Program-made: the position numbers and the translations under genes | Notes under the pieces: model-generated | Told to the model about the DNA's origin: nothing | What the model saw: only the letters and a program-made list of their open reading frames with translations | Databases searched by the model: none | Shown here: piece after piece, positions 14,767 to 30,944 of the stretch | How the letters are laid out: each line of letters opens with the position of its first letter | Position numbering within the stretch: position 1 is the first letter of the stretch | From: a bacterium | Lineage (GTDB): Bacteria > Patescibacteriota > Patescibacteriia > SBBB01 | Assembly: GCA_005239895.1 (NCBI GenBank) | Contig: SBBB01000016.1 | Location: forward strand, 1 to 47,137 | Direction: 5' to 3' | Length of the DNA stretch: 47,137 bases

Positions 14767-15313
14767 GAAGTTAATCTATCTAAGCATTTTATTAAGGGAA
14801 TTATATAAAATTAGGGCCGAATCGCATTTTCACTCGCGATTCGGCTTTATGTATAAAAAATGGTTGATACTTGTATTTATCTTCCCTAGAATCTTGACAA
14901 AAACAACTAATATTTTATTCGAAATAAATTGTCAAGAACTTAGTAATCGCTGAAAATCTTGACCCTATTTAAAAACTATATTTCATATTTATAGTTAAAA
15001 AAGTTAGTAGTCATAATCCCAAAAAAATAATGTTTAATTATTTTTAATAACTAAACAAATTTTTAGTAACAGCTAAATTATTTTTAAAATCAAAAACCAC
15101 TGTGAGGTTTCGTCACGATCGCGACGAAGCGTCACGCTATAATGTTTTAAAATACTATATATTTAATCAAAACCATAAATATACACTAGTCATTACTCAC
15201 TCTTGACTATTAATTCATAATATTCTAGATTAATAATAATTGACTGCTAATGTCAATTACCACGCACGATGGTTTCGCGAGCTCTCATGTATCAATTAAT
15301 ATAAAGGAGAAAA
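14767..15313. other. Long intergenic region
   Basis: Apart from the terminator at 14816-14845 I see no gene. It contains a gapped palindrome TTCGTC-N8-GACGAA with a central CGATCG at about 15109-15128. The rest is AT-rich low-complexity DNA rich in TTTTTAATAACTAAA-like words. The last 15 nt hold the ribosome site of the next gene. Confidence 0.5.
14816..14845 (+). terminator. Intrinsic terminator of the 163-aa gene
   Basis: GCCGAATCGC and GCGATTCGGC form a perfect 10-bp stem with a 10-nt loop, then TTTATG. Confidence 0.75.
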
Positions 15314-15802
15314 ATGCGCAAACCAGCTAAACCTTATTTGAAGTGGTTAATATTTTTCATGCTTGGTACAACGCTTGGGTTTTTTATTACAGAATATAGG
15401 ATGAAAGATACCATTCCTCCAGTCAACGAATTAATATTAAAATTCTTGCTTGTACAAACCTTAGCACTGGCTATCATATCTTTATTCTTATTATTCTTAA
15501 GAATAAAGGCTTGTAAGGCCAAATTACTAGCCAAACAAATTGCCGCACAAAAATGGCATCTCGTAGAGGCTTATTTGATTCAAAATGAAGAATTACAATA
15601 CCTAGATTCAAAAGGTTGGAGAAAAATTAGCAATAATCATTTCGGGCTTAAAGATGGAAGCGCACTACTTAAATTGTCATCTAAAGATCTACAACGAATA
15701 CCGCTAAAAATCGGCCTCCACCAAATCATCCACTTGCAAAAGCAACAAGTAGTTTTATGTGTTTTCAAACCTTGGAATTTGATTTCATTAATGAAGCCCT
15801 AG
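15314..15802 (+). CDS. Membrane-anchored hypothetical protein, 162 aa
   Basis: Starts MRKPAKPYLKWLIFFMLGTT, with AAAGGAG just upstream. Two transmembrane helices lie at about residues 9-25 and 40-63. A basic linker (RIKACKAKLLAK) and a soluble C-terminal half of about 95 residues follow, probably cytoplasmic given the charge pattern. No family recognised. It has its own terminator. Confidence 0.72.
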   Translation: MRKPAKPYLKWLIFFMLGTTLGFFITEYRMKDTIPPVNELILKFLLVQTLALAIISLFLLFLRIKACKAKLLAKQIAAQKWHLVEAYLIQNEELQYLDSKGWRKISNNHFGLKDGSALLKLSSKDLQRIPLKIGLHQIIHLQKQQVVLCVFKPWNLISLMKP

Positions 15803-15932
15803 AATGTGCTTTCAAAACCGATCTTTGCGCGTATTTGTTGCCAAAAAACTGAATCTATACTAGACAAAAACCTTACATAGAATTTTATTACAATTGATAA
15901 TAAACAATCCTTACATCAACAAATATTAATGA

Positions 15933-15967
15933 GCCCCGACACAGATGCAGTGCCGGGGCGTGCTTTT
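15933..15967 (+). terminator. Intrinsic terminator of the 162-aa gene
   Basis: GCCCCGACAC pairs with GTGCCGGGGC (one mismatch), followed by GTGCTTTTT, a classic Rho-independent terminator. Confidence 0.85.
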
Positions 15968-16017
15968 TAAATTAACTATAAATTGATATAATAATTTAAT
16001 TATAATATCAATTATAT

Positions 16018-16737
16018 ATGGAAAAAACTTTAATTATCGGGGTTGGAGAAATAGGTAAATCTTTGGGACGCGTTCTGTCTGCGTCTTATCAGGTCAGTTA
16101 CAAAGATATTAATAACCATACAAATGGAGAATTCCCGGTTATTAATATTTGCTACCCTTATTCTAAAGATTTTGTTGATATAACCAAAAAATATATTCAA
16201 CAACATAAACCTAAACTAACCTTAATTCATTCCACAATTAAAGTTGGCACAACTCGTAAAATTGGTTTTAATGTTGTTCATACACCGGTTACTGGTAAAC
16301 ACCCATTTCTAGATCAAGGTATTTTAACTTTTACTAAACTTATAGGAGCTCAATCTCCGGATAACGCTCGCGCTGCTCAACTTTTCTTAAAAAAAGCTAA
16401 AATTAAAACCTGTATATTTAGTTCTCCTGAAACCACAGAATTAACAAAAATACTTTGCACAACTAGATTAGGATGGGAAGTAGTTTTTGCCAAAGAAGTC
16501 GCTAAATTATCTAAAAAATACAAAGTGCCTTTTGAAGAAGTTTACACTTTATGGACTTCATTTTATAATGAAGGATATGCGAAATTAAAATCTAGTCATT
16601 TTGTTCGCTCTAATTTAAAATCCATGCCTGGAAAAATTGGAGGTCACTGTGTTATGAGTAATTGCGACTTACTAGATTGCTCTTTAACAAACATTATTAA
16701 AAAATTTAATAAATCGTATAATCAAGTTAAAAAGTAA
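16018..16737 (+). CDS. UDP-glucose/GDP-mannose dehydrogenase-like Rossmann protein
   Basis: This 239-aa NAD-binding protein resembles the N-terminal and central parts of nucleotide-sugar 6-dehydrogenases. It has LIIGVGEIGKSLG (5-17) for the dinucleotide and LIHSTIKVGTTRKI (about 74-87), equivalent to the family's STVPPGTT segment, then NVVHTPVTGKHP. KIGGHCVMSNCDLL near the C-terminus resembles the GGHCIPVDP loop. The C-terminal UDP-sugar domain is absent, so it is much shorter than true dehydrogenases (about 400 aa). Its substrate and activity are uncertain. No Shine-Dalgarno; 30 nt before tmk. Confidence 0.75.
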   Translation: MEKTLIIGVGEIGKSLGRVLSASYQVSYKDINNHTNGEFPVINICYPYSKDFVDITKKYIQQHKPKLTLIHSTIKVGTTRKIGFNVVHTPVTGKHPFLDQGILTFTKLIGAQSPDNARAAQLFLKKAKIKTCIFSSPETTELTKILCTTRLGWEVVFAKEVAKLSKKYKVPFEEVYTLWTSFYNEGYAKLKSSHFVRSNLKSMPGKIGGHCVMSNCDLLDCSLTNIIKKFNKSYNQVKK

Positions 16738-16767
16738 CTTTATAAACTTTTTACTAATTTTTAAACT

Positions 16768-17502
16768 ATGCCAATAAAAAAAGGAAAATTTATTGTCATT
16801 GACGGCATTGACGGCAGTGGTAAGGGAACCCAAACCAAACTTTTGATCAAAGCTTTACGCCGGGATAAACAAAAAGTAAAAATTATTAATTTCCCAGCAT
16901 ATTCGTCTAACTTTTTTGGTAAATTTATTGGACATTGTCTTGCCGAACAGTATTTTAATTTTGTACAAACTCATCCCAAAATTGCCTCCGTGCTTTACGC
17001 CGCAGATCGTTTTGAATCTAAAAATAAAATTGAGAAATGGCTAAAACAGGGTTTTATAGTTATAGCGGATAGATATGTGAGCGCTAATCAAATTCATCAG
17101 GGTGGAAAAATTAATAACCTTAAAAAACGCGCCGCATTTATTGAATGGCTACATGAAATGGAATATAATGTTTTTAAAATTCCAAAACCGCATGCTGTTT
17201 TTTATCTAAACGTACCTCTAGTCATAGCCTTAAAACTTATTAAACAAAGAAGTAAAAATACTGGGAGTAAAAAAGATGTTCATGAAAAAGATATTAATTT
17301 TTTAAAAAATTCTCAACAGAGCGCTTTATGGCTCGCTAAAAATCAAAAAAACTGGATTACGATTAATTGTCTCAAAAATAGAGAGATGGACACACCTGAA
17401 AATATTCATCAAATAATTTATTCTCAGGTCAAAAAATTATTAACAAATAAAATTCAAGCAGGGGATTTTTGCGTTGCGTTGAACAACCCCCTGCTACACT
17501 AA
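16768..17502 (+). CDS. tmk: Thymidylate kinase
   Basis: This enzyme phosphorylates dTMP to dTDP for DNA synthesis. The P-loop is GIDGSGKGTQ (about 13-22). The DRY-type motif is ADRYVSANQIHQGGK. FPAYSSNFFGK holds the substrate-binding Phe-Pro region. A lid segment with RSKNTGSKKDVHEKD follows. At 244 aa it is longer than usual (about 210). The extra C-terminal residues IQAGDFCVALNNPLLH are encoded by the convergent gene's terminator hairpin. No Shine-Dalgarno. Confidence 0.93.
   Translation: MPIKKGKFIVIDGIDGSGKGTQTKLLIKALRRDKQKVKIINFPAYSSNFFGKFIGHCLAEQYFNFVQTHPKIASVLYAADRFESKNKIEKWLKQGFIVIADRYVSANQIHQGGKINNLKKRAAFIEWLHEMEYNVFKIPKPHAVFYLNVPLVIALKLIKQRSKNTGSKKDVHEKDINFLKNSQQSALWLAKNQKNWITINCLKNREMDTPENIHQIIYSQVKKLLTNKIQAGDFCVALNNPLLH
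17457..17495 (-). terminator. Terminator of the 95-aa gene, inside the tmk 3' end
   Basis: AGCAGGGG pairs with CCCCTGCT around a 23-nt loop. On the minus strand it lies 43 nt after the 95-aa gene and is followed by TTGAATTTTATTT. It also codes for the last residues of tmk. Confidence 0.6.
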
Positions 17503-17537
17503 TAAACGACAAAATTACTTATGCTTAACAGCATTAG

Positions 17538-17825
17538 CTAATTGCCAAATATAGCTAAAAAAACACCCTTATCATCAAAAAAGAAATAACCAAGATAACC
17601 ACCGTAGCAAAAACCAGCAATCAAACAGACTGCAACAAAAATCCTGTTAATGATATTGCCTCGAATCTTGCCGGAGTTATTAAAGTAGAAATAATCTATA
17701 GTAAAACCAAAAGATCCACTGACTATAGTAGATACAATGGCACTAACCAGAGCACCCATCAAAACCAAAAACATGCAAAAACCAAACAAAATCCAATTAA
17801 ATATTGTTACGCTAATCACTTCCAT
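17538..17825 (-). CDS. Small membrane protein, 95 aa
   Basis: Starts MEVISVTIFNWILFGFCMFL, with AAGGAGG 6 nt upstream. There are two or three hydrophobic segments (about residues 5-36 and 58-92, the latter glycine/tyrosine-rich: AGFCYGGYLGYFFF). The middle is polar (DYFYFNNSGKIRGN). Family not recognised. It lies downstream of the 37-aa basic gene on the same strand, separated by a hairpin. Confidence 0.72.
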   Translation of the reverse strand: MEVISVTIFNWILFGFCMFLVLMGALVSAIVSTIVSGSFGFTIDYFYFNNSGKIRGNIINRIFVAVCLIAGFCYGGYLGYFFFDDKGVFLAIFGN

Positions 17826-17854
17826 ATCAGACCTCCTTCTGTAAAATGAGTTGC

Positions 17855-17882
17855 TGAAGGGGACTGTGGCTGGCCCCCTTCA
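17855..17882 (-). terminator. Hairpin between the 37-aa and 95-aa genes
   Basis: TGAAGGGG pairs with CCCCTTCA (12-nt loop). It sits 36 nt after the 37-aa gene stop and 30 nt before the 95-aa gene start. It could therefore end the first message or act in the leader of the second. Confidence 0.5.
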
Positions 17883-17917
17883 CCTTTTGTTACCTGAAAA
17901 CAATAAAATAATTGACC

Positions 17918-18031
17918 CTAAAGCCACTTCCTCCTTTCCCTCTTTTTTCTTCCTCTTCGGTTTAACGCTGCACCCTTTACTCCTACCATGGTAAGCGGAG
18001 GTGGTCTCTTGGAATTCTTTTTCTTGATCAT
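17918..18031 (-). CDS. Very basic 37-aa peptide
   Basis: The frame reads MIKKKNSKRPPPLTMVGVKG followed by AALNRRGRKKRERRKWL. It has a GAGG ribosome site 8 nt upstream and a promoter about 30 nt before that. More than a third of the residues are Lys or Arg, as in small ribosome- or nucleic-acid-binding proteins. I cannot assign it to a family. Its gene signals support it more than its length does. Confidence 0.5.
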   Translation of the reverse strand: MIKKKNSKRPPPLTMVGVKGAALNRRGRKKRERRKWL

Positions 18032-18061
18032 CAGAGATCCTCACTTTCAATAAAACATAAT

Positions 18062-18090
18062 ATCATAGTTAATGTTATTAAGCCACTCAA
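18062..18090 (-). promoter_or_regulatory. Sigma70-type promoter for the 37-aa gene
   Basis: On the minus strand TTGAGT, 17-nt spacer, TATGAT. Confidence 0.5.
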
Positions 18091-18183
18091 AATTACAAAA
18101 ATTAAGTTCTGCATTGAAATCCTTGTGTTATTTTTTAATAAGATGTATACTGATAAAAGTTAATTTTTAATAAAAACAGTTTC

Positions 18184-18265
18184 TGTCATTCCCGACCTGA
18201 TCGGGAATCCGGGAGCGCGCACAATTAATAATAAGTCTGGACTCTAGTCAGGTCTAGGCTGACAT
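18184..18265. repeat. GTCATTCCCG-bounded repeat, copy 1
   Basis: Begins TGTCATTCCCGACCTGATCG and ends GGTCTAGGCTGACA. It holds an inner CCCGACCTGATCGGG hairpin. The family recurs at 20071, 29593, 37190 and 42180. Confidence 0.65.
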
Positions 18266-18317
18266 AAAATACATAGATTGTATATTTTTTAGTTTTAATT
18301 TTTAAACACGTAAAAAT

Positions 18318-19466
18318 ATGACAAAAAACACAAAAATAGTGCTTGGTATAGTTTTAGTTTTAATAGTTGTTTTCATTGGGTATAAAATGACAATGAAACC
18401 CGATTCAAAAGATACTAGCATGCCAGCTTCCACTGAACCGATTAAGATTGGATTTATTGGACCACTAACCGGCGATGCAGCTGCTTATGGGGCAGATACA
18501 GCTAGCGCGGCTCAAATTGCATTAAAAGAAATTAATACCGCAGGTGGTGTCAATGGAAGACAAATAGAACTAATTGTAGAAGATGGAAAATGTAATGCCA
18601 AAGATGGTCTTTCTAGCGCGCAAAAACTTATCAATCTAGATAAAGTAAAAATTATTCTATCAGCAAGTTGTAGCGGGGAATTATTAGGTTTTACTAATCT
18701 AGCTGAACAAAATAAAGTGCTGGTATTAAATACCCTAGCTTCAAATCCAAAAATTAGCGAAGCTGGTGATTATATTTTTAGAAACGATCCCAGTGATGCA
18801 GATGGCGGTAAACAATTAGCACAGTTAGTTGTAAAATCTTATAAAAAAGTGTCTATTATAACTGAAAATACAGAATATGCTCAAGGCATTGCAACTGTAT
18901 TTAAGGAAGTATATAAAAATCTTAGTGGTACTATAGTTGTTGATGAAGTTTTTTCTCCAGATATGAAAGATTTCCGTTCCATATTACTTAAAATCAAAGG
19001 AACAGACACTGAGGCAATTTTCTTAAATCCGCAAGCTCCAGCTAATGCAGCTCGGCTTGCAAAACAAGCTCGCGAACTTGGCCTTAATCAACAATTCTAC
19101 GTTGCCTATATGAGCGGACCAGAATTTGCAGCCTCGGGTCCAAGCGCTGAAGGTGCTTATATTATTGATGTTCCCGGACTGGCTACTGGAAAAGGTGCTG
19201 AACTTTTAAAGAAGTTTAAAGATGTTTATAACCGTGAACCTGGTTATCCTTATTTTGTTGGTTCGACATATGATGCTTTGTTTCTTCTGACGGATGCCAT
19301 AAAAAAAGAAGGTGAAAATACAACCAAAATTAAAGATTATCTTTATGCTCTACCAGAATATGACGGAACTGTTGGTAAATATAAATTCGATAAAAATGGT
19401 GATCTGGAAGGTATTGATTTTATAGTTCGAAAAGTAGTTGACCAAAAAGCTACAGAGCTCAAATAA
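18318..19466 (+). CDS. LivK-like periplasmic-type binding protein (Peripla_BP_6)
   Basis: This solute-binding protein belongs to the branched-chain amino acid ABC-transporter family. A single N-terminal transmembrane anchor (about residues 6-24) and a short linker are followed by the type I binding fold. IKIGFIGPLTGDAAAYG (about 42-58), GGVNGRQIELIVEDGKC and ILSASCSGE are the usual start. Then come GSTYDALFLLTDAIKK and YDGTVGKYKFDKNGD near the end. The first residues could be an uncleaved signal anchor. No permease or ATPase gene is near it, so the partner is elsewhere or it works as a sensor. No Shine-Dalgarno. Confidence 0.9.
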   Translation: MTKNTKIVLGIVLVLIVVFIGYKMTMKPDSKDTSMPASTEPIKIGFIGPLTGDAAAYGADTASAAQIALKEINTAGGVNGRQIELIVEDGKCNAKDGLSSAQKLINLDKVKIILSASCSGELLGFTNLAEQNKVLVLNTLASNPKISEAGDYIFRNDPSDADGGKQLAQLVVKSYKKVSIITENTEYAQGIATVFKEVYKNLSGTIVVDEVFSPDMKDFRSILLKIKGTDTEAIFLNPQAPANAARLAKQARELGLNQQFYVAYMSGPEFAASGPSAEGAYIIDVPGLATGKGAELLKKFKDVYNREPGYPYFVGSTYDALFLLTDAIKKEGENTTKIKDYLYALPEYDGTVGKYKFDKNGDLEGIDFIVRKVVDQKATELK

Positions 19467-19552
19467 GCTTCTAAGCTTTTATATAACATTTATTTCATTC
19501 ATATCTACATATTAAAAAGCTAAATTCATTAGCGTTGTTTGGATGCGTTTTC

Positions 19553-19580
19553 TTGACATTTTTAAAGTATGTTGTATGCT
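19553..19580 (+). promoter_or_regulatory. Consensus sigma70 promoter
   Basis: A perfect TTGACA, 16-nt spacer and TATGCT, 70 nt upstream of the first of two small genes. Confidence 0.75.
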
Positions 19581-19649
19581 TAGGAAAGGGTTGTTTTTTC
19601 TTACAAACAACTATTAACCACTAAATAACAAGAAGGATTAAGGAGGATT

Positions 19650-19805
19650 ATGGAACCAATTAGTATAATTGAAGTATTGCAACGCAGGCTTGAAATAGTT
19701 GAAAAAGAGCGCGATGATGCTATACAAAAACTCAACGCAGCTCGCGCAGAAATTGAAACCCTTAAAAAACAAGCTTATGAACGTACACTAGGAGCGCACT
19801 CTTAG
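19650..19805 (+). CDS. Small coiled-coil protein, 51 aa
   Basis: Starts MEPISIIEVLQRRLEIVEKE, with a near-perfect AAGGAGG 4-5 nt upstream. Heptad-like hydrophobic spacing runs through RRLEIVEKERDDAIQKLNA and AEIETLKKQA, so it should form a single coiled coil. Function unknown. It is the first gene of a two-gene unit with its own promoter and a terminator after the second gene. Confidence 0.65.
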   Translation: MEPISIIEVLQRRLEIVEKERDDAIQKLNAARAEIETLKKQAYERTLGAHS

Positions 19806-19844
19806 TAATTTAAACATTTTCTTGGATCAAAATAAGGAGACAAC

Positions 19845-20003
19845 ATGCCTAAAAAACTAGCACCGAAAAAGATCAAAAAAGAAAGCACGTTCGCTGACAG
19901 ATTTAACGCAGACGACCCAAACTACGAAGAAGAGTATGAGTTAAAAAAACCAGACGAAGACGGAAACGATATTATTGAATGGAATCCAGAAAATGGAGAG
20001 TAA
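19845..20003 (+). CDS. Small acidic protein, 52 aa
   Basis: Starts MPKKLAPKKIKKESTFADRF, with AAGGAGA upstream. The first 12 residues are basic and the remainder is strongly acidic (NADDPNYEEEYELKKPDEDG, EWNPENGE) and probably disordered. A terminator follows 17 nt after the stop. It pairs with the coiled-coil gene just upstream. Function unknown. Confidence 0.65.
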   Translation: MPKKLAPKKIKKESTFADRFNADDPNYEEEYELKKPDEDGNDIIEWNPENGE

Positions 20004-20019
20004 AAAAGCAAACAATAAT

Positions 20020-20057
20020 GGCGCTACCAGATATTATCAGTAGCGCTTTCGGGTTTT
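20020..20057 (+). terminator. Intrinsic terminator of the small two-gene unit
   Basis: GGCGCTAC pairs with GTAGCGCT (12-nt loop), then TTCGGGTTTTT. Confidence 0.8.
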
Positions 20058-20070
20058 TAAAAATTATCAC

Positions 20071-20243
20071 CTATCATTCCCGACCTGATCGGGAATCCAG
20101 GTTATCAAATCTTCAGCCCTGAGGTACTTAGAATCGATAGGTTGAAAGTTTAAAAAAATAGTTACTTTATTAACTTTCTACTTATTGCTTTCTACTTTCA
20201 AACCTTAAAGACTGGATCCCCGGGTCACGGCCCGAGGATGACA
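20071..20243. repeat. GTCATTCCCG-bounded repeat, copy 2
   Basis: Left end TATCATTCCCGACCTGATCG, right end CCCGAGGATGACA. The middle holds AAGTAGAAAG-type low-complexity sequence. No coding potential seen. Confidence 0.65.
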
Positions 20244-20263
20244 AATAAAAATACAAACCAGAT

Positions 20264-20479
20264 CTAACGCTTTGATTTTTTTAATTTAAGCATTTCAATT
20301 AAAGCGGAAATAATAAACACAACTTGCAAAGTTGAGAAAATTATATCTTTAATACTTACACTATAAATAAGCAAAGAAACACCTCCGATTATAAACAGTA
20401 GATCTTGTCTTTTTTCAGATTTTATCCAAACTGCAACAGATATAATAATTAAACCAATGATTCCAAAAATTATAAACAT
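20264..20479 (-). CDS. Small membrane protein, 71 aa
   Basis: Three hydrophobic segments fill most of the chain (FIIFGIIGLIIISVAVWI, DLLFIIGGVSLLIYSV, IIFSTLQVVFIISALI). Short lysine-rich turns separate them, and the C-terminus is basic (KLKKSKR). There is no ribosome site. It is a plausible but unproven gene between repeats. Confidence 0.5.
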   Translation of the reverse strand: MFIIFGIIGLIIISVAVWIKSEKRQDLLFIIGGVSLLIYSVSIKDIIFSTLQVVFIISALIEMLKLKKSKR

Positions 20480-20573
20480 AAAGTTAATTTAAGAATTTAA
20501 TTCAATAATAACACAAATTAAATCCATCTAAAATAGTGTATTGTTTTTAAACATCCTTATACTATATACCATC

Positions 20574-20612
20574 GTCTACAGCGATCTGCGATAGCAGAGT
20601 TGTGTAGACACA
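20574..20612. repeat. 40-nt hairpin repeat, copy 1 (upstream of Cas2-like gene)
   Basis: Outer arms GTCTACA/TGTAGAC enclose CTGCGATAGCAG. It ends 30 nt before the Cas2/PaaX-like start codon. The consensus with copies 2-4 is gCGTCTACA-n-CTACGCGATAGCAG-n-TGTAGAC. Confidence 0.75.
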
Positions 20613-20642
20613 GCACGTACAAATATATTATAATATAATTAT

Positions 20643-21119
20643 ATGATGAACAATACAATCAGCGATCATTTAATAGCTTATTTATTATCTTGCCGCTCTT
20701 TAACAATATATAGACAAATATTATGGTGGCGATTGAAAAAAAGACTAGATACCGCTAAACAAAAAAATTTTAGACAAAATCTCTATCGATTAAATAAAAA
20801 AGGTGCTATAAAAATAAACGGCAATCTTATTCATTTAAATAAAAAAGTACTCACTAATTATACAAAAAGAAATAACTTAGTAACGATTAAAAAATATCCA
20901 ATTAAAACTGAAGAAATTTTAATTTCTTTTGACATACCAGAAGACAAAAAGAAGATTAGAGAATGGCTTCGTAGACAAATCAAATATTGGAATTTTAAAA
21001 TGGTTCAAAAAAGCCTGTGGTCTGGATTTGGTCCTGTACCAAAAGACTTTAAAGAAAAACTTAAAGAGTTGGGTGTTGAGAAAAACATTAAAATATTTAA
21101 ACTAAATAAAAAATTATAA
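20643..21119 (+). CDS. Cas2/PaaX-like protein (HTH plus Cas2-type fold)
   Basis: This 158-aa protein has a basic N-terminal half that looks like a winged helix (YLLSCRSLTIYRQILWWRLK and a LYRLNKKGAIKINGN wing). Its C-terminal half resembles the PaaX C-terminal/Cas2 ferredoxin-like domain: EEILISFDIPEDKKKIREWL (first strand with the SFDIPE motif), then NFKMVQKSLWSGFGPVP (the xQxSvwxG strand). Stand-alone proteins of this type occur in Patescibacteria without CRISPR arrays, and no array is present here. The gene is bracketed by hairpin repeats 30 nt before the start and 9 nt after the stop. It could be a repressor or a nuclease acting on those hairpins; neither is shown. Confidence 0.75.
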   Translation: MMNNTISDHLIAYLLSCRSLTIYRQILWWRLKKRLDTAKQKNFRQNLYRLNKKGAIKINGNLIHLNKKVLTNYTKRNNLVTIKKYPIKTEEILISFDIPEDKKKIREWLRRQIKYWNFKMVQKSLWSGFGPVPKDFKEKLKELGVEKNIKIFKLNKKL

Positions 21120-21128
21120 TATTTTGGT

Positions 21129-21168
21129 GCGTCTACAACACTACGCGATAGCAGAGAGTTGTAGATAC
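21129..21168. repeat. 40-nt hairpin repeat, copy 2 (downstream of Cas2-like gene)
   Basis: GTCTACAAC pairs with GTTGTAGAT (one G-T), with CTACGCGATAGCAG inside. It starts 9 nt after the Cas2-like stop codon. Confidence 0.75.
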
Positions 21169-21251
21169 TATCTATCACCTATTGATAAAAAATATTTAAA
21201 TATGTTAAAGTAAATTTGCTTATCCTATCATGCGATAGGACACGTAAAAAT

Positions 21252-21700
21252 ATGGAAATAAAAGATTCACCGCCAAAAATACCTTTCGCCACTTATCAAG
21301 TTGGCTTAAAAATTCTGCTCAAAAAAGAGGACAAGTTTTTATTCCTAATAGATAGTAGTACTGGATTTTTAGATTTACCAGGTGGGCGTATAGACGAAAT
21401 TGAGCACGAAACCCAGCTTACTGAAATTATCGCTAGAGAAGTAAATGAAGAGCTCGGAGAAAACATAAAATACAAATTAGGAAAACCTATTTTTCAATTT
21501 CGCAGGTAGAACAATAAAAAAAGGAATGCACTTTTATTACAGTATACGAAGCTGAATATTTGTCAGGTGAAGTTAAATTATCTCATGAACATAGTAATTT
21601 TCAATGGGTTAATTCTAAAGAAATGAACTGGCCCGCAGATCGCTTTTTTAATAAAGAAGAATATGAAGCTTTTAAAAAATATTTTGAAGCTTTGAGTTGA
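21252..21700 (+). pseudogene. Nudix hydrolase, disrupted by frameshifts
   Basis: The N-terminal part is a good Nudix domain: VGLKILLKKEDKFLFLID, then LPGGRIDEIEHETQLTEII and AREVNEELGE forming the Nudix box with a 3-residue expansion. The frame stops at TAG 21507 after PIFQFRR. The C-terminal half is found one and two frames over: GRTIKKGMH, then FITVYEAEYLSGEVKL, EHSNFQWV and a final FEALS at 21700. At least two indels are needed to restore it, so decay is likelier than a single sequencing error. It probably once hydrolysed a nucleoside diphosphate derivative. The frame is open upstream of 21252, but MEIKDSPPKIP is the natural start. The SDR gene begins 4 nt later. Confidence 0.75.
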
Positions 21701-21704
21701 TTAT

Positions 21705-22451
21705 ATGATTTTAAAAAATAAAAAAATTTTAATAACTGGTGCTTCGAGTGGTATAGGTCAAGCCATAGCTATGGCTTGCGCTCAAAAAAGAGCCACAGTT
21801 ATTATTAATTATAGAAAAAATCTTAAAGGAGCCAAACAAACCTTAGAAGAAGTTGAAAAACACTCTAAAGGATTTATTTTTCAAGCGGACTTAACTAATG
21901 AAAAACAAATTCAAAAAATGTTTACGGGTATTGCCAATAAAACTGGGAAAATAGATATTTTAGTAAATAATGCTGGCGACGCGCAACCTGGAGACTTTTT
22001 TAATAATCAAAACTGGCAAGATCAATTTGAAAATATTTTCTTTTCAGCTTTACATACTTCTCAAAAATTTCTGGGACAAAATAAAAAATCTCCTTTGAGA
22101 AAAATTTTAAATATCACCTCGTACTACGGAACTATTGGTGGAGGTAATCCAGAATTCTTTGCCTATTCTGTAGCTAAAGCTGCCTTAGCAAGTATGACTG
22201 TTGCGCTTGCAAAAACTGATGGTAAAATTTTAGTAAATGCTGTTGCGCCAGGATACACCTGGACTCCACCTTGGGAAGGAATATCTGTAGCTGAAAAGAA
22301 AATTTGCGAAGCAAAAGTAATGATCAATAGATATGTAACTGCGAATGAAATTGCTCACGCAGTGGTTAGTATTCTGGAAAATAATGCTATTACAGGACAA
22401 ATTATTACTGTGGATGGAGGCCTATCTTTACAAAAACTAGAGAAAAAATAA
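21705..22451 (+). CDS. Short-chain dehydrogenase/reductase (FabG-like)
   Basis: This is an NAD(P)-dependent oxidoreductase of the classical SDR family, 248 aa. It has the cofactor motif GASSGIG (about 11-17), the structural motif NNAG (about 88-91) and a catalytic Ser in NITSYYG. The YxxxK pair is in YSVAK, and the C-terminal TGQIITVDGG is typical of FabG and sugar/alcohol dehydrogenases. No lipid-synthesis genes lie nearby, so a 3-oxoacyl-ACP role is not supported by context. No Shine-Dalgarno; 4 nt after the Nudix remnant. Confidence 0.88.
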   Translation: MILKNKKILITGASSGIGQAIAMACAQKRATVIINYRKNLKGAKQTLEEVEKHSKGFIFQADLTNEKQIQKMFTGIANKTGKIDILVNNAGDAQPGDFFNNQNWQDQFENIFFSALHTSQKFLGQNKKSPLRKILNITSYYGTIGGGNPEFFAYSVAKAALASMTVALAKTDGKILVNAVAPGYTWTPPWEGISVAEKKICEAKVMINRYVTANEIAHAVVSILENNAITGQIITVDGGLSLQKLEKK

Positions 22452-22626
22452 AAATTCATATATAAATTATAGGATTGCATGCAATTTCTTATAATCAGAG
22501 AGGTGAAACTAACCACACACCTCCCTTAGTGATATAAAAATGTTCTTGACTTTTTGACAAAAGTGTTAAAATATTTAAACTAAACTAAATAAAAAATATT
22601 ATAGTTCATATAAATATGGTTTTGAT

Positions 22627-22666
22627 GCGTCTACAGTACTAGGCGATAGCAGAACATTGTAGACAC
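22627..22666. repeat. 40-nt hairpin repeat, copy 3
   Basis: GCGTCTACA and TGTAGACAC flank CTAGGCGATAGCAG. It lies in the gap between the convergent SDR and M20 genes, 16 nt past the M20 stop codon. Confidence 0.72.
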
Positions 22667-22682
22667 TAAAATTATCCATTCT

Positions 22683-23774
22683 TCATATCTTCATATTTAT
22701 CTCAACAAATTTTTTAAGCACAATATAAAATTGTTCTAGACTGTTCATATCAACCCATTCATTTTCACTGTGGTGACCTCCACCCCTTGGTCTAGTTAAA
22801 ATTGTTTGAATGCCTTTATCTAGAAAAAATCTAGCGTCGGATGAGCCATGAGAATGAATAAATTTCTGTTTAATCTTAAGCTGATCATATACAATTTTAG
22901 AAAAAGCTTTAATGTAATTATTTTTAATATCAATACTATAATTATTCCCAAATGAAATTTCTTTAATAGTTATGCCTTTATAATTCTTAAGAATGGCCTG
23001 AAATATTTTTTCTAACCTTGGTTTGGAAGAAGCTGAAGCAATGCGAATATCAATCATAGCCGAAGCATAATTTGGTATCTGATTTGTTGATTCTCCTCCT
23101 TTTATTTTACCAATATTAAAAGTATCGTGAATATGATCTTTAGTGCAACAAGGTTCTTTTGGAAATTGTTTCTTAATAATAAACAAAAAATCAATCAACT
23201 CCTCTATAGAGTTTTTACCTGACCATGGACGTGAAGCATGCCCTGATTTTCCTTGACTCTCAATTAATAGGTGCCACACGCCTTTAGCCGACACTTCTAG
23301 TGCAAAATTTTTACCCCCATCTGGTAATATACACAAGTCCGAACTGTAACCACTGGACAGCAAGGCCTTAACACCGTTATGACCTCCTATTTCTTCGTCA
23401 GTTGTAATCATTATTCCTGTACTATATTGTGGCAGCCTTTTCCCCAATTCTTGAAAAAGTTTTAAATAACATGCAATAGCAAATTTCATATCAAAAACAC
23501 CGCGACCATAAATGCAATTGTTTTGTAATTTAGGTTGAAATGTTTTTTCAGAACCATCAACAACATCAAGATGCGCTTGAAGCCACAACTTTGGTTTTTT
23601 TGTTTTTTGGGTAGTAATTAACAAAGATGAAAAATTATTCTTTTTATAATCAGTAATATAAACTGGCACTGTTTTTAATTGAGTTTTTATCCAAGCTATG
23701 GCTTTTTCATTTTCCAAATAATTACCAGTAACAGTTTTAAAAGCTATTAATTTTAGTAATGTTTTAGCTAACAT
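22683..23774 (-). CDS. M20-family metallopeptidase (ArgE/DapE-like)
   Basis: This is a zinc-dependent amidohydrolase/peptidase of 363 aa. It has the first metal motif LQAHLDVVDG, then YGRGVFDMK with the bridging aspartate, then ITTDEEIGGHNG with the catalytic and metal-binding glutamates. The second metal region is DGGKN/SAKG, and the final histidine is in RGGGHHSENEW. The dimerisation lid holds GKSGHASRPWSGKNSIE. It may process an N-acyl amino acid or a dipeptide; no biosynthetic genes are adjacent. No Shine-Dalgarno. Confidence 0.9.
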   Translation of the reverse strand: MLAKTLLKLIAFKTVTGNYLENEKAIAWIKTQLKTVPVYITDYKKNNFSSLLITTQKTKKPKLWLQAHLDVVDGSEKTFQPKLQNNCIYGRGVFDMKFAIACYLKLFQELGKRLPQYSTGIMITTDEEIGGHNGVKALLSSGYSSDLCILPDGGKNFALEVSAKGVWHLLIESQGKSGHASRPWSGKNSIEELIDFLFIIKKQFPKEPCCTKDHIHDTFNIGKIKGGESTNQIPNYASAMIDIRIASASSKPRLEKIFQAILKNYKGITIKEISFGNNYSIDIKNNYIKAFSKIVYDQLKIKQKFIHSHGSSDARFFLDKGIQTILTRPRGGGHHSENEWVDMNSLEQFYIVLKKFVEINMKI

Positions 23775-23857
23775 ATATTATAAATATAAATTATATCTAA
23801 ATTAGATATTACGCTCTTTTATTGTACAAACTGAAACGTGTTTTGTATATAGATTTC

Positions 23858-23887
23858 TTGGGGCATGTACACTCTAACATGCCCCAA
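23858..23887 (-). terminator. Terminator of the 24811 gene
   Basis: TTGGGGCATGT and ACATGCCCCAA form a perfect 11-bp stem with an 8-nt loop, 19 nt after the minus-strand stop. Confidence 0.7.
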
Positions 23888-23905
23888 ATTTACCGGCAAC
23901 CAATT

Positions 23906-24811
23906 TCATTCCACTATAAGCGGCCCACTGACGGTATTCGTCGCTCCGTGTAAACGAAGACTTGGTCCTGCCATCCATAAACCGCCAATACACTTCCATT
24001 GCTCCTTATACTTTTCGCGAATCCGTTGCTCTTTAACTGACCAAACAAAAAACGGCCGATAAATCATCCAGGGATAGTTAGGAAAATCTGTAGACATTGG
24101 TAACAACAAATACTGACAATACATTTGCTGATAAAGATTCAAAGCTTTTTTAATGCGCTCTTTTGTTGAACACCCAAATCTTCGACGAGGGTCCCAAATC
24201 TCCAATCCCAAACATTTACTTCCGCTTAAAGGTTTTAAAGCAAAACCGCGATTCCAAGGGAGATCTTCAAAATCAGAGACACAAACACGATACCAAAAAC
24301 CCATCCTCAGACCATAACCCTTATTACCTTTGGCCTTTAACGAACTAACCGAACAAGATTCTAAATAACTATACTCTGTCTCATCTGGTTCAGCCCTAAC
24401 TAAAACTAAAGATCTGGATGATAAAGATTGTTCAGTCTGAGCCCATAAAGAATCATCTCCGTCCAATGAACGCTTTGGAGAAACAATAACCTTAAACTTG
24501 GGCCAAATACTCTTTGCAATTTCTAATCTGGTTTTAAAATCAGTGTTAATCAAACCACACAATCCAACTCCAGATGGTCTTTCCTCTACCTCATAAATAC
24601 CCAGCTTCCCATTATGAACAACACAATCTAATCTAATAATCAGAGATGGCACATTATACTTTTTTTGAATCCAAGTAGTTTCTCTCTCAAAAAGATCAAC
24701 CCATTGATCGATCATTTCTAGAGATTGCTCAACCAAGTCTTGAGTAAAAACTATGGCTGTAGTTGTGGTTTGTACTTTCCATGTCCCGATCTGAATCATC
24801 TTGATATCCAT
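23906..24811 (-). CDS. Hypothetical protein, 301 aa, weakly ATP-grasp-like
   Basis: Not firmly recognised. I start it at MDIKMIQIGTWKVQ because AAGGAGG lies 8 nt upstream. IIRLDCVVHNGKLGIYEVEERPSG (D and E spaced as in the metal-binding end of ATP-grasp enzymes) and GFALKPLSGSKCLGLEIWDP (lysine plus glycine-rich loop) recall parts of an ATP-grasp fold, but in unusual order. The rest, rich in Trp, Arg and Tyr, has no clear match. It has its own terminator and a structured leader. Confidence 0.7.
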   Translation of the reverse strand: MDIKMIQIGTWKVQTTTTAIVFTQDLVEQSLEMIDQWVDLFERETTWIQKKYNVPSLIIRLDCVVHNGKLGIYEVEERPSGVGLCGLINTDFKTRLEIAKSIWPKFKVIVSPKRSLDGDDSLWAQTEQSLSSRSLVLVRAEPDETEYSYLESCSVSSLKAKGNKGYGLRMGFWYRVCVSDFEDLPWNRGFALKPLSGSKCLGLEIWDPRRRFGCSTKERIKKALNLYQQMYCQYLLLPMSTDFPNYPWMIYRPFFVWSVKEQRIREKYKEQWKCIGGLWMAGPSLRLHGATNTVSGPLIVE

Positions 24812-24841
24812 TCTTTTCTTCCTCCTTAAAAAGGTTAACAA

Positions 24842-24870
24842 AAAACTGGCCTCACCATGAGACCAGTTTT
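24842..24870 (-). promoter_or_regulatory. Terminator-like hairpin in the leader of the 301-aa gene
   Basis: AAAACTGG-n-CTCA pairs with TGAG-n-CCAGTTTT. On the minus strand it is followed by TTTTTTG and sits about 30 nt before the start codon. It could be an attenuator for the 301-aa gene or the terminator of the cutA message from upstream. Confidence 0.5.
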
Positions 24871-24904
24871 AGAAGCAGAAATTTTAATAAAATAATTATA
24901 AATT

Positions 24905-24956
24905 AGTATTACTTCCGCGCCCTAAAGCTAGCCTCAGGAAGAGGCGTAAGTAATGC
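24905..24956 (-). other. Possible structured leader upstream of the attenuator-like hairpin
   Basis: On the minus strand ATTACTT and AAGTAAT could close a stem around a GCCTC-TTCCT-GAGGC hairpin and a GCTTTAGGGCGCGG strand. No known riboswitch class was recognised. The remaining bases up to the cutA stop (24957-25102) are AT-rich with no gene seen. Confidence 0.35.
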
Positions 24957-25102
24957 CAATAACCCAAACAAAGACCGTTTGATTGTAAAAAATTTAATTG
25001 TTTGTTTCCTTTTTCTTTAAACATATAACAATTTATTAATCATAACAAAAACCATAAAAAATGTCAAGACGTGGGTTTTGTAAATATCAAAATTGACTGC
25101 AA

Positions 25103-25426
25103 CTACTTACATTCCTTGTCTATCCACTGTAAATACTTTTCAAAGCCAGAATTTATAGGAATCATAATTATCTCTGGCGTTTCATAATCATGATTAGAAA
25201 TCATATCCTTTTTAACATTTTTATAAAGGGACTTTTTGGTTTTAATGAAAAGCAGTTTTTCGGCAGCAGAATTAACACGACCTTTCCAATGATAATAACT
25301 TTTAATATTTTGCACTTGGGCGCATGCAGCCAAACGTTTGGCAAGCAATGAATCAATAATCTTTTTACCTGTACTTTCTTTGCTAAATGTTGTGACTACA
25401 ATGCAATACTTATTTTTTACAGGCAT
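25103..25426 (-). CDS. cutA: CutA1 divalent-cation tolerance family protein
   Basis: This small trimeric cytoplasmic protein has 107 aa. CIVVTTFSKESTGKKIIDSL, then LLAKRLAACAQV and IKSYYHWKGRV are the family's diagnostic strands and helix, including the conserved ACAQV and the WxGxV turn. EKLLFIKTKKSLY and HDYETPEIIMIPI complete the fold. CutA has been tied to copper tolerance, but its biochemical role is unsettled. It is distant from the copper island at 31-37 kb. No Shine-Dalgarno. Confidence 0.93.
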   Translation of the reverse strand: MPVKNKYCIVVTTFSKESTGKKIIDSLLAKRLAACAQVQNIKSYYHWKGRVNSAAEKLLFIKTKKSLYKNVKKDMISNHDYETPEIIMIPINSGFEKYLQWIDKECK

Positions 25427-25463
25427 AAATTATTTTATTATCTTAACTTAATTATACCAAATT

Positions 25464-25492
25464 ATTGACTAAATATATATTAACCTGTAATG
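25464..25492 (+). promoter_or_regulatory. Promoter for the candidate ncRNA
   Basis: TTGACT, 17-nt spacer, TAATGT (with TAATAT just beyond), reading toward the structured region. Confidence 0.5.
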
Positions 25493-25499
25493 TAATATA

Positions 25500-25713
25500 T
25501 TAGGAGGAGCAGAATATTTATTCTAAACTCTAATGCTACATCAAAATGTAGCCTATTAGGACGGTGAAGGAACTTGATCGTCAAGGGTTTTCCCTCCAAA
25601 GCGTCTACCCTCCAGACGCAAAACACACTCTTGGCGAGTAAACCTTCACCGTCCACCCCCATTATCATTATGGCCATCTCTCTTTCAGCATCAGAGAGAT
25701 GGCCAAGCTTTTT
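25500..25713 (+). ncRNA. Candidate structured non-coding RNA
   Basis: The plus strand between a promoter-like site and a strong terminator folds extensively. The first hairpin is CTAAT-GCTACAT/ATGTAGC-ATTAG (25530-25559). A 12-bp perfect stem GGACGGTGAAGG/CCTTCACCGTCC (25559-25570 with 25643-25654) then closes a junction. The junction holds CTTGA-TCG-TCAAG, GGG-TTTT-CCC, GCGTCT-n-AGACGC and ACTC-n-GAGT hairpins. A terminator ends it: TGGCCATCTCTC/GAGAGATGGCCA plus T5. The plus-strand ATG inside gives only an 8-residue frame. The minus-strand open frame here starts inside the terminator stem without a ribosome site. It does not look like tmRNA, RNase P RNA, SRP RNA or 6S RNA. Confidence 0.55.
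25671..25713 (+). terminator. Strong intrinsic terminator
   Basis: TGGCCATCTCTC and GAGAGATGGCCA form a perfect 12-bp stem with an 11-nt loop, followed by AGCTTTTT. Confidence 0.85.
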
Positions 25714-25741
25714 ATAAATTTTTGCTTTATTTTAAAAACAA

Positions 25742-26086
25742 CTAAACCGAAACAAGTCCAAAAACATCCTTTAAAGCACCAAGTTTCATACGCTTCCCAA
25801 CCCATTCCAGCGCTTCCATACATGTTATGGACTTACGCTCGTCTGTGGGAATAGACATATAAAACGTACCATCTGAGCAACGATACAAATATTCATAAGG
25901 AATACCTGGTGCTTCAAAACTACCAATATATTCTGGATTGTTTTCAGTTGCACGCCTGTACGCAACGCCAGTTTTTTTACAATATAACTTTGTTTTTATA
26001 ATATATGCCCTATATCCTGCTTTGGACATCTTTAGTAAAATATCTTCATTGAGTTGTTGTTCTTCTCTTTTTTCTAAAGTGTTCAT
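25742..26086 (-). CDS. Hypothetical protein, 114 aa
   Basis: Starts MNTLEKREEQQLNEDILLKM, with AAGGAGG 5-6 nt upstream, and has a promoter whose -35 box lies in a repeat end. The chain is soluble and mixed. It has two cysteine-containing stretches (KTKLYCKKTG and YLYRCSDGTFYMSIP) that might bind a metal, and a conserved-looking SITCMEALEWVGKRM. No family recognised. Confidence 0.72.
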   Translation of the reverse strand: MNTLEKREEQQLNEDILLKMSKAGYRAYIIKTKLYCKKTGVAYRRATENNPEYIGSFEAPGIPYEYLYRCSDGTFYMSIPTDERKSITCMEALEWVGKRMKLGALKDVFGLVSV

Positions 26087-26112
26087 CTGAACCTCCTTAT
26101 ACTACTATTATT

Positions 26113-26142
26113 AATTTAGACATAAAAACAGATATCTGTCAA
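26113..26142 (-). promoter_or_regulatory. Promoter with its -35 box at a TIR repeat end
   Basis: On the minus strand CTTCTAACGGGG runs directly into TTGACA, then an 18-nt spacer and TAAATT. It drives the 114-aa gene. Confidence 0.55.
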
Positions 26143-26156
26143 CCCCGTTAGAAGCT
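26137..26156. repeat. Single end of the TIR element family
   Basis: TGTCAACCCCGTTAGAAGCT matches the end of the elements at 7391, 31053 and 40948. No partner end was found nearby. Confidence 0.55.
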
Positions 26157-26240
26157 AAATTCAAATCATAATACACAAAATTGACATTACAATAAAATTA
26201 AAATACCATTTATTTAAAAGAATGAACATGAGACATTAAA

Positions 26241-27311
26241 ATGTTCACAACTATGAACGAAAAAATTCAAAATAGAATTTCGCAAGCTATAGAAAAAAAA
26301 CTATTTCCAGCTTGTGTGATTGGAGTAGTAAAAACTAATGGAAACAGGTTAATTGTGCCCAGTGGTAAATTCACTTTTGACACTAATGCATCTGTAGTTC
26401 AAGAAAACGCGATTTTTGACATTGCTTCTGTCACTAAATCAATTCCAACTTCGTCTTTAGCTCTAAAATTAATTGACAAAGGAAAACTAAATCTAGAAGA
26501 TAAATTAATAAATTTTATTCCTGAGTTTGGCAACTCAGACCGAAGAAACATTTTAATCAAACACTTGCTTACCCAGACCTTAGATTACAATTTTCGTTTG
26601 TCAGACTATAAAGACAAATCACCCGAAGAAATTTTAAATGTTATTTTTACCACTGAATTTAAAAGCAAACCAGGAACTAAATTTTTCTACACCAATGCCA
26701 CTAGCATCTTATTAGGCTTAGTAGTGGAACAGGTTTTTGGCACACCATTGGACCAACTGGCTAGCAAGTATTTTTTTGAGTCACTAAAAATGACACGAAC
26801 CACATTTAATCCATTGCAAAAATTTAAAAAAGAGGAAATTATACCCACTGAAATTCAAGACTGGCGAGGGGGACTAGTTCAAGGAGAAACTCATGACGAA
26901 ACTGCTCACATATTAAATCAAAAAATGATCCCAGGATCAGCTGGAGTATTTTCAACTGTTCCAGACTTATTAAATTTCTTAGAAATGCTATTAAACAATG
27001 GTTCGCTAGCTGGCAAACAATATTTTTCAGCTGAAATTATTAAACAAATACAAACAAATCAATTGTCCGGTATTGGGTACAGTGCTGGTTTAGGATGGGA
27101 ACTAAATCAACCTAGGTATATGGGTAAATATTGTAGTCCTAAAACTTTTGGCAAAACCGGCTTTACAGGTTGTTCTTGTGTATGTGATATTAAAAAGGGG
27201 ATTGGTTTTGTTATTCTATCAAACTATACTTATCCAAATCGCAAAACAGACTTTGCGTCTATCAATAAATTTAGAAGCGACATAGCTGATATTATTTTTG
27301 AAAATTTATAA
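26241..27311 (+). CDS. Serine hydrolase, beta-lactamase/penicillin-binding-protein fold
   Basis: This 356-aa class C beta-lactamase-like or DD-peptidase/esterase protein has the three active-site motifs. SxxK is in FDIASVTKSIPTS (the SVTK tetrad, about residue 67), YxN is in FFYTNATS, and KTG is in FGKTGFTGCSC. The KTG motif is followed by two cysteines. There is no clear signal peptide, so it may be cytoplasmic or use an unusual export route. Such proteins are often esterases or D-amino-acid peptidases; antibiotic resistance should not be assumed. MNEKIQN at 26253 is an alternative start. The EEP gene follows after 3 nt. Confidence 0.88.
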   Translation: MFTTMNEKIQNRISQAIEKKLFPACVIGVVKTNGNRLIVPSGKFTFDTNASVVQENAIFDIASVTKSIPTSSLALKLIDKGKLNLEDKLINFIPEFGNSDRRNILIKHLLTQTLDYNFRLSDYKDKSPEEILNVIFTTEFKSKPGTKFFYTNATSILLGLVVEQVFGTPLDQLASKYFFESLKMTRTTFNPLQKFKKEEIIPTEIQDWRGGLVQGETHDETAHILNQKMIPGSAGVFSTVPDLLNFLEMLLNNGSLAGKQYFSAEIIKQIQTNQLSGIGYSAGLGWELNQPRYMGKYCSPKTFGKTGFTGCSCVCDIKKGIGFVILSNYTYPNRKTDFASINKFRSDIADIIFENL

Positions 27312-27314
27312 AAT

Positions 27315-28088
27315 ATGAAACTTATAACTTTGAACATTTGGGGTGGTAAAATTTTCAAACCCTTAATTGAATTTTTAAAACGCCATGCTGATAATATAGA
27401 TATTTTTTGTTTTCAAGAAGTTTTTCATACTACAACTAATATTACAGAAAGTAATGACGCGCGCACTAATACTTTGAAGGAAATATCTGACATACTGCCA
27501 GATCATATTGGATATTTTACACCTGAACAAAACGGGTTTAACCTCCAAGAAAAAGTAAACTTTGATCTAGTTAGTGGCAATGCGACCTTTATTAGAAAAA
27601 CAACACCTGTTCTGAGTAATGGAAATGTTTTTGTATATGGAAGTCTAAATTCTATGCCCGACCTTACTCAAAAATGGAATCTTATGCCACGAAGCATATC
27701 GCACATCCAATTTCAATCTGGTAATACGCTAACCACTGTTTTTAATTTTCATGGTTTATGGAATAATCTTGGGAAAATGGATACTAACAGCAGATTGCAA
27801 CAATCACAAAAAATCAATGATTACATTTCTAAATTTCAAAACTCAAATATAATTCTTTGCGGTGACTTCAATTTATTGCCAGAAACAAAAAGCCTGTCTA
27901 TGCTTGAAGTGAGTATGAAAAACTTAATAAAAGAATATAATATTACTTCCACTCGAAGTAGCTATTATACAAAACCAAATAAATTCGCAGACTATATTCT
28001 TGTATCGCCACATTTAAAAGTAAATGACTTTCAGGTTTTACAAGATGAAGTGTCAGATCATTTGCCATTATTTTTAGATTTTGAATAA
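27315..28088 (+). CDS. Endonuclease/exonuclease/phosphatase (EEP) family protein
   Basis: This metal-dependent phosphodiesterase or phosphatase has the DNase I/ExoIII fold and 257 aa. It has MKLITLNIWGG (first Asn), DIFCFQEVF (metal-binding Glu), FNFHGLW (catalytic His), IILCGDFNLLPETKS (Asp and Asn) and DEVSDHLPLFLDF (final Asp-His). All catalytic residues are present. The substrate may be nucleic acid, a phosphoinositide-like lipid or a small molecule. It is coupled to the serine hydrolase upstream (3-nt gap). No signal peptide seen. Confidence 0.9.
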   Translation: MKLITLNIWGGKIFKPLIEFLKRHADNIDIFCFQEVFHTTTNITESNDARTNTLKEISDILPDHIGYFTPEQNGFNLQEKVNFDLVSGNATFIRKTTPVLSNGNVFVYGSLNSMPDLTQKWNLMPRSISHIQFQSGNTLTTVFNFHGLWNNLGKMDTNSRLQQSQKINDYISKFQNSNIILCGDFNLLPETKSLSMLEVSMKNLIKEYNITSTRSSYYTKPNKFADYILVSPHLKVNDFQVLQDEVSDHLPLFLDFE

Positions 28089-28120
28089 TAACCAAACCTT
28101 CACAATATTTCACAACTAAC

Positions 28121-28162
28121 AAATGTAAGAAACTAGCGCCATCGCACAAACTTCTTACATTT
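28121..28162. terminator. Long-loop hairpin after the EEP gene
   Basis: AAATGTAAGAA and TTCTTACATTT form 11 bp around a 20-nt loop, 33 nt past the stop codon. There is no clean T-run, so termination is only possible. The rest of the 28163-28523 gap is AT-rich, with the word ATTAAACTTCCGA twice (about 28308-28342) and hairpin copy 4. Confidence 0.45.
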
Positions 28163-28347
28163 ATATAAAAATAATGAAATATAAATATACAAACATTGCA
28201 TCATCTTCAAATTACTATTCTCGCTATATTTTGGTTTATTATTTCAATAAATATATTTAACCGGGCAGTAAGAAAATACGAAAGTTTTAGTTTTATAACT
28301 TTTGGAAATTAAACTTCCGACAATTGGGATTAAACTTCCGATTTGAA

Positions 28348-28387
28348 GCGTCTACAATACTACGCGATAGCAGATGACTGTAGACGC
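28348..28387. repeat. 40-nt hairpin repeat, copy 4
   Basis: GCGTCTACA and TGTAGACGC pair perfectly over 9 bp around CTACGCGATAGCAG. This is the most regular of the four copies. Confidence 0.78.
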
Positions 28388-28529
28388 TAGTAAACAAGAA
28401 ACCAATAGAGATTAGTTATGTTTCTCAAAACACGCAAACCGTGCTATTATTAAAGTAAATCCATTTATAATGGATATCTAAAACCTTATATCTAATTATT
28501 GAAATTTTCAACTATAAAATAACGTGTTT

Positions 28530-29551
28530 ATGCGAGATAAATACATTTCACTAGAAGAATATTCTGATCAGCAAAATCAACCTAAAAATTCACAACAAAA
28601 CACAACAGGCAAAGAAGAGCAACAAACCCCAAACAACAACATAAGTTTAATCAACCTAGATAATATAAAAAATCCAGACAGACTAAAAAGAAGAAAAATA
28701 ATTTTAAACAACCTAAACAAAAATGAACTGATAACTGCCGTACAAGAAGGTATTCAAAAAAAACTAATAGAACACGTGGAAAAAGAACGAGAGCGAGTAC
28801 GCGCAATAGAAGAAACCATAGCCACAAAAGAAAAATACGCACAAAAAAACTAGAAACCGAGCAAGGTGATAGAGAATTTCTTGATTATTTTAAAGCTTTT
28901 AACATAGCCCTAATAGCTAACCAAGAAGCCGTGCGCACTAATCAAAAAGAACTACTTCAAACCAGCAAAAATGATATTTGGGTATTCATGGATAAAATTT
29001 TTAAATACATTGAAAATAAAAAACAAATAAAATACTGGGAACTAGATGCTGTGGAAAATAATGTTGTCAATAAAATTAAAATTCCTGATTTTAAAAAAGC
29101 GGTTCAAGTACGCTTAGCAGCGCTTGAGTTTAAATTCGCAATGTCAAAAATTATCCGAATCGAAAATAAACACGAGCTTGACGCGCCTGATAACACGCAA
29201 ACACAACTCCAGTTAAATAATCAACTAAGAAAACAATACGAAACAGAGGCTCGCTTACAATACAGCAGGAAATATAATATGCAAAATCAAATAGATCAAT
29301 TAAGATTACTTGCCAGTATTAACGAGGAGCTCTCAACAATTTTTACCGTCGTAAAACAAATAAACAGAGGTAAAGAAATAACTGAAGGGGATATATTTGA
29401 CATTCGTACTAGAAGACCAGTTTTAATAAAAATACTCAAAGAAGTAAAAGAACTACGCAAGGCTCATACAACAAAACCAGAAATAGCAACACCAGAAGAT
29501 AGTGTGGTTAAAAAAATTACGCACTTTTTGATAAAAAAACCAAAGCTCTAG
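28530..29551 (+). CDS. Unknown coiled-coil-rich protein, split by an apparent frameshift
   Basis: Two adjacent frames join into one protein of about 340 aa if one A is added to the A7 run at 28843-28849. The first part ends IATKEKYAQK and would continue LETEQGDREFLDYFKAF, then NIALIANQEAVRTNQKELLQ without a stop to 29551. The N-terminus is Gln/Asn-rich and disordered. A charged helix (KLIEHVEKERERVRAIEE) and later helices (RKQYETEARLQYSRKYNMQ) follow. It ends in a basic tail (LIKKPKL). No family recognised. As sequenced, the first frame stops at 28853. GTG 28524 is an alternative start. Confidence 0.55.
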
Positions 29552-29592
29552 TTTCATGACCTTTGGGAATTAAATGCCAGCAAAACCCGTCT

Positions 29593-29675: not shown

Positions 29676-29727
29676 AAGAGGTAATTTTAAATAAAACTAA
29701 ACTATGCTATTATTAATGTAATATTTT

Positions 29728-30900: not shown

Positions 30901-30944
30901 CCAAAACTTCTAGTTTTAATCGCGCATTATGGACAAAATACGGA

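Follow-up and report, generated by a model that had tools for sequence, protein, structure and literature searches.

The window, by which we mean the whole 47,137-nucleotide stretch of Patescibacteria DNA analysed here, carries a wHTH-Cas2-like gene that is bracketed by dispersed 40-nt imperfect palindromes (Table 1). The upstream copy lies about 31 nt from the start codon, and the downstream copy follows the stop codon by 9 nt. The original prediction had placed the gene between two copies of one hairpin and had named further copies at 22627 and 28348. All four copies were recovered, far above chance (expected matches: 0.24 for GCGATAGCAGA when one mismatch is allowed and 0.00 for the arm pattern).

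Table 1. Positions of the gene, its domains, the palindromes and the promoter-like site in the window
Feature	Position	Strand	Remarks
wHTH-Cas2-like gene	20643..21119	+	158 aa; ORF list, PF20803 match and predicted structure
Winged helix, N-terminal half of the protein	about residues 1-80		predicted structure
Cas2-like PaaX_M domain, C-terminal half of the protein	about residues 91-155		D97 within FDIPE
Upstream cognate palindrome, copy 1	20572..20611	+	40 nt; right arm overlaps -35 box of best promoter-like site
Downstream cognate palindrome, copy 2	21129..21168	+	40 nt
Dispersed palindrome, copy 3	22627..22666	+	between 3' ends of convergent SDR-like 21705-22451 and peptidase-like 22683-23774
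Dispersed palindrome, copy 4	28348..28387	+	intergenic, 260 nt past 3' end of ORF 27315-28088
Promoter-like site TAGACA-18-TATAAT	20605..20634	+	consensus match only, 11/12; start codon about 8 nt downstream

The four window copies and three further copies from the same genome form a gapless alignment of 40 columns, with GTCTACA...GCGATAGCAGA...TGTAGA constant and the stretches between arms and centre variable, so that pairing is not always kept there. Of the three sequences that the hairpins were predicted to share, GCGATAGCAGA is indeed common to them, while two window copies lack CTACGCGATAGCAG and one lacks TGTAGAC. The centre of the window palindromes is CGATAG, and the rule elsewhere in the family is CGATCG. 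No terminator-like site was found in 20400-22700, the region around the first three copies. The NUDIX-like gene at 21216-21690 is seemingly frameshifted near 21510.

In a domain profile search the protein matched PaaX_M (PF20803; E 6.8e-10), and a Cas2 domain was matched below the cut-off only. The predicted structure consists of a winged helix and a Cas2-like half, with pLDDT values of 92-97 across most of the latter, and the nearest solved folds in a structure comparison are Cas2, VapD and E. coli PaaX; the HTH-like and Cas2-type halves of the original prediction are confirmed. D97, the Asp that follows the first Cas2 strand within FDIPE, and R106 are invariant in all 80 aligned family rows; a Gln, a Ser and a Trp in a second motif are also conserved, partly as a result of the search pattern. 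Among 61 family proteins, all match PaaX_M, two match PF07848, the N-terminal HTH of PaaX, and some match other wHTH families. Relatives of the window protein were searched for in viral contigs, and none was found there.

The window genome (831 kb in 31 contigs) contains 11 copies of the window-type palindrome, seven of them strong and the remaining four variants that keep its arms. Two variants have the canonical CGATCG centre and one a CGGCCG centre, and these connect the window form with the rest of the family. Contig 6 holds a second PaaX_M gene, which is accompanied by a different palindrome, CTAACTAT..CGCTATAGCG, with one copy upstream and two downstream; this palindrome occurs in up to 15 places (none for the reversed-pattern control), some of which are located where contigs end and may reflect overlaps in the assembly. 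Three Y1 genes are also present in this genome. One of them, a RAYT gene on contig 18 (about 10860-11690; L031 1217-2050), is bracketed by TGTTTAGGAGTTCAACTCCTAAACA hairpins that have many more copies across the genome, and gene and hairpin look like an ordinary REP-RAYT pair. The REP-RAYT-like layout first proposed for the window gene holds, and this genuine RAYT with its own hairpin offers a comparison within one genome. Contigs 17 and 29 share a composite repeat of about 193 bp (L254 1407-1599, L255 1407-1599) that combines the RAYT-type, the window-type and the second PaaX-gene-type palindromes, and several contigs start or end within it.

Relatives of the gene were studied at 80 Patescibacteria loci retrieved by protein similarity alone, and 73 genes were scored for palindromes. 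Palindromes within 200 nt were present on both sides of 28 of the 73 genes and of 1 of the 343 control ORFs of the same loci (Fisher p 1e-22), and on at least one side of 45/73 genes and 30/343 controls; 23 of the 73 genes have none at the threshold used. The link between gene and palindrome is thus supported as real and as recurring across Patescibacteria, and the suggestion that such palindromes would flank relatives of the gene holds. The palindromes measure 34-48 nt and have a C-N4-G centre; at a score of at least 11, CGATCG is by far the most frequent centre (63) and most others are C-N4-G. The downstream palindrome is as regular as the upstream one. Arms differ at 10% of 11 positions between two copies at one gene and at 64% between different genes. 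The trait is present in both main clades of the gene tree, and the coupling of protein distance to arm distance is weak overall (Mantel r up to 0.14), being clear for close relatives only. Thioredoxin reductase, glutaredoxin, LTD-type and enolase-like genes recur as neighbours, judging by eye from their sequences, and no aromatic (aryl-CoA) catabolic genes, the kind that PaaX regulators control, were recognised among them. Neither cas1 nor a CRISPR array was noticed among window ORFs in 15000-32000 or among the recurrent neighbours, and the palindromes are solitary.

An ungapped 40-nt alignment of 50 copies has 92.6% of its cells paired and a covariation of 1.06, compared with 0.14-0.21 when slid. 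The outer arms and the centre are highly symmetric and positions -8 to -6 less so, and G-T accounts for 21 of the 113 non-Watson-Crick cells, with no excess over random mismatches, although these symmetry and G-T figures call for caution as palindromes were picked by Watson-Crick score. Since G-T pairs do not exceed the random-mismatch expectation, symmetry seems to be kept at the level of DNA. No GTAG-type tetranucleotide foot or other shared tag was found in this alignment, where the C-N4-G centre alone is conserved. Judged by their sequences, the repeats behave as DNA palindromes with outer arms and a fixed centre, and not as RNA hairpins.

Across the class, 68 of 381 genomes carry the PaaX_M gene, with up to 12 genes in one genome. 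Palindromes of model R1 were found in 33 of the 381 genomes, 24 of which also carry the gene. With 17 palindrome candidates scored per genome, palindromes are present in 24/68 genomes with the gene and 9/313 without it (p 3e-13), which speaks in favour of the co-variation of hairpin and gene that had been put forward as a check. Among the gene-less genomes with a palindrome, at least two matches resemble ordinary terminators, and another genome holds two copies of one palindrome.

Dispersal away from the gene is evident in several genomes. In G033 an identical 38-bp palindrome occurs at one PaaX-like gene and at several remote intergenic sites, and the same pattern, with other arms, is seen in G126, G100 and G136. 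According to mechanical ORF calls, 31 solo sites fall into 13 convergent, 16 codirectional and 2 divergent gene gaps, compared with 31, 249 and 47 control gaps, respectively, in G100 (convergent excess p 1e-5). This placement is the habit of REPs and not of operators. Perfect palindromes of other kinds, centred on ACTAGT, GTATAC or CTTAAG, are also dispersed in G100 (L190, L207, L218, L231, L239), for example TACCACCATACTAGTATACTAGTATGGTGGTA.

G033 and G100 are congeneric and carry the PaaX-like gene at the same place, between MFS-like and ksgA-like genes. Protein identity between the two genomes is 80% for the MFS-like, 71% for the ksgA-like and 40% for the PaaX-like protein, and the arms at the PaaX-like gene are unrelated on both sides. 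Solo copies mostly match the arms of their own genome, and G100 also retains older copies of the G033 type. At orthologous places in this one genus pair, four solo sites are private to one or the other genome and a fifth is common to both. In DP16D_bin.14 a 144-bp palindrome doublet lies upstream of the gene, and a second copy, 88% identical, lies 2.3 kb away without a gene. Searches for a target-site duplication, an excision product or an exact empty site found none. The gene itself does not appear to be rampantly mobile, because within some clades both it and its neighbours are conserved in place. A PaaX-like gene lies beside a thioredoxin reductase gene in opposite relative orientations in L044 (77-1504) and L050 (2402-4029); inversion of an element at this trxB locus was rejected as proof, L044 having one detectable palindrome and a short contig.

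At the level of sequence, then, the gene is bracketed by palindromes with cognate arms, further copies are dispersed, gene and palindrome co-occur across genomes, protein and arms turn over in concert, and solo copies are present in one genome and absent from another. We consider it somewhat probable that gene and repeat form a pair working like REP-RAYT, in which an unrelated wHTH-Cas2 protein takes the place of the Y1 transposase; what is found in many Patescibacteria looks like an undescribed counterpart of the pairs of REP repeats and transposases. Recognition of the palindrome by the wHTH-Cas2 protein is strongly implied. The protein would dimerize through its Cas2-like halves; its two winged helices would recognise the outer arms of a DNA site with two-fold symmetry, with the Cas2-like dimer placed over the central C-N4-G (usually CGATCG; CGATAG in the window). 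The invariant Asp and Arg106, together with the absence of this Asp from E. coli PaaX, suggest a dimer that has two reading heads and possibly a catalytic centre. Bound upstream, the protein may repress its own promoter, and such autorepression is plausible because copy 1 in the window reaches into the -35 box of the best promoter-like site. We further infer nuclease action and protein-driven spread of the palindromes: the protein may nick or cut the palindrome at its centre, new copies of the palindrome or of a doublet would thereby arrive at other intergenic sites, and the protein would change along with the arms. The bolder claim of a new selfish gene-repeat class, in which a Cas2-fold nuclease reads the palindrome by its winged helix, cuts the centre and propagates the palindrome without Cas1 or HUH transposases, is put forward tentatively. 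Against the REP-RAYT-like reading stand the negative result for a target-site duplication, an excision product or an exact empty site, the low copy numbers, the 23 genes with no palindrome, the clades in which the gene keeps its place, and a presence/absence comparison of a single genus pair. Moreover, not all Cas2 proteins are active nucleases, and no Cas2-fold protein is known to move DNA alone.

The most serious alternative is that the protein is a PaaX-type repressor with no nuclease role and that the palindromes are operators, the upstream copy serving autorepression and the others a small regulon or DNA looping. The winged helix and PaaX_M domain, the overlap with the -35 box and the palindromic dimer sites that such repressors usually have are all in keeping with it. 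We regard it as unlikely, given that only 2 of the 31 solo copies lie between divergent promoters and that they are enriched between convergent 3' ends, that the downstream copy is no less regular than the upstream one, that arms and solo copies turn over together between congeneric genomes, that duplication of a doublet has left the gene out, and that an Asp absent from E. coli PaaX is invariant in the family. Dispersed palindromic sites with the gene of a putative binding protein among them also recall a chromosome-organising or partition-like system such as ParB/parS or MatP/matS, and there are winged-helix matches to AspA and TubR. These matches are weak and generic, however, the family's presence in a minority of genomes and in many genes per genome fits such a role poorly, and arms change within a genus whereas housekeeping sites should stay stable; this explanation is quite improbable.

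Many solo copies lie just past 3' ends, as would be expected if the palindromes were RNA-level elements (terminators or mRNA stabilisers) that lie near the gene by chance. That idea is very improbable and largely refuted, because arms match the gene and palindromes co-occur with it; copies also occur upstream of the gene, G-T pairs are not enriched, the arms are gene-specific and the first three window copies lack a terminator-like site. Finally, the window hairpin could be owned by a RAYT, with the Cas2-like gene as a passenger, in a genome that has three Y1 genes. We give this hardly any credence and reject it: no window-type copy was found near any of the three, and the contig-18 gene is bracketed by its own, different hairpin, with no TCTACA arm in that locus.

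If the preferred reading of a REP-RAYT-like pair is true, an independent repeat system would be added to the roles of the Cas2 fold, which is familiar chiefly from CRISPR adaptation and from toxins, and this would inform ideas on how Cas2 became a partner of palindromic repeats. The family also provides natural protein-site pairs by the dozen, with specificity that is readable in their sequences, and its source is a bacterial radiation with little-studied repeats.

No earlier description of the pairing of a wHTH-Cas2 gene with palindromes was found among the open-access papers searched. Cas2 homologues outside CRISPR have been reported near mobile elements with resolvases or relaxases, in a passage that does not mention such palindromes (PMC3506569). 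The Cas2 and VapD nucleases resemble the window family in fold and in the Asp that follows strand 1, but the window family adds a winged helix, and its cognate unit is a solitary palindrome. PaaX, the repressor of phenylacetate catabolism (E. coli b1399; PDB 8a39), likewise has a winged helix followed by a Cas2-like domain; it is, however, 316 aa long compared with about 160-210 aa in the window family, it lacks the FDIPE Asp, and its gene lacks bracketing palindromes. A study of CGTC-tagged REPs found no transposase for its repeats (PMC3733652), and window copies mostly begin with CGTC. This tag is probably a coincidence because the palindromes of relatives lack it, and membership in the CGTC-REPs was ruled out on the same ground.

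The closest parallel is with REP-RAYT (TnpA-REP) systems, REPtrons and REPINs (PMC2817692, PMC3116915, PMC8266576), which likewise consist of short intergenic palindromes bracketing a dedicated protein gene, with co-evolution of cognate protein and palindrome, doublets, and composites of several palindrome kinds. Unlike REP-RAYT, the window family reaches its dozen genes in a single genome, and its copy numbers of 2-15 per palindrome family are far below those of classical REPs (over 100; PMC2817692). REP-RAYT uses an HUH/Y1 transposase and a hairpin with a GTAG tag, whereas the window family combines a wHTH with a Cas2 fold (PaaX_M/Cas2 matches only) and a DNA palindrome that has two-fold symmetry and a C-N4-G centre.
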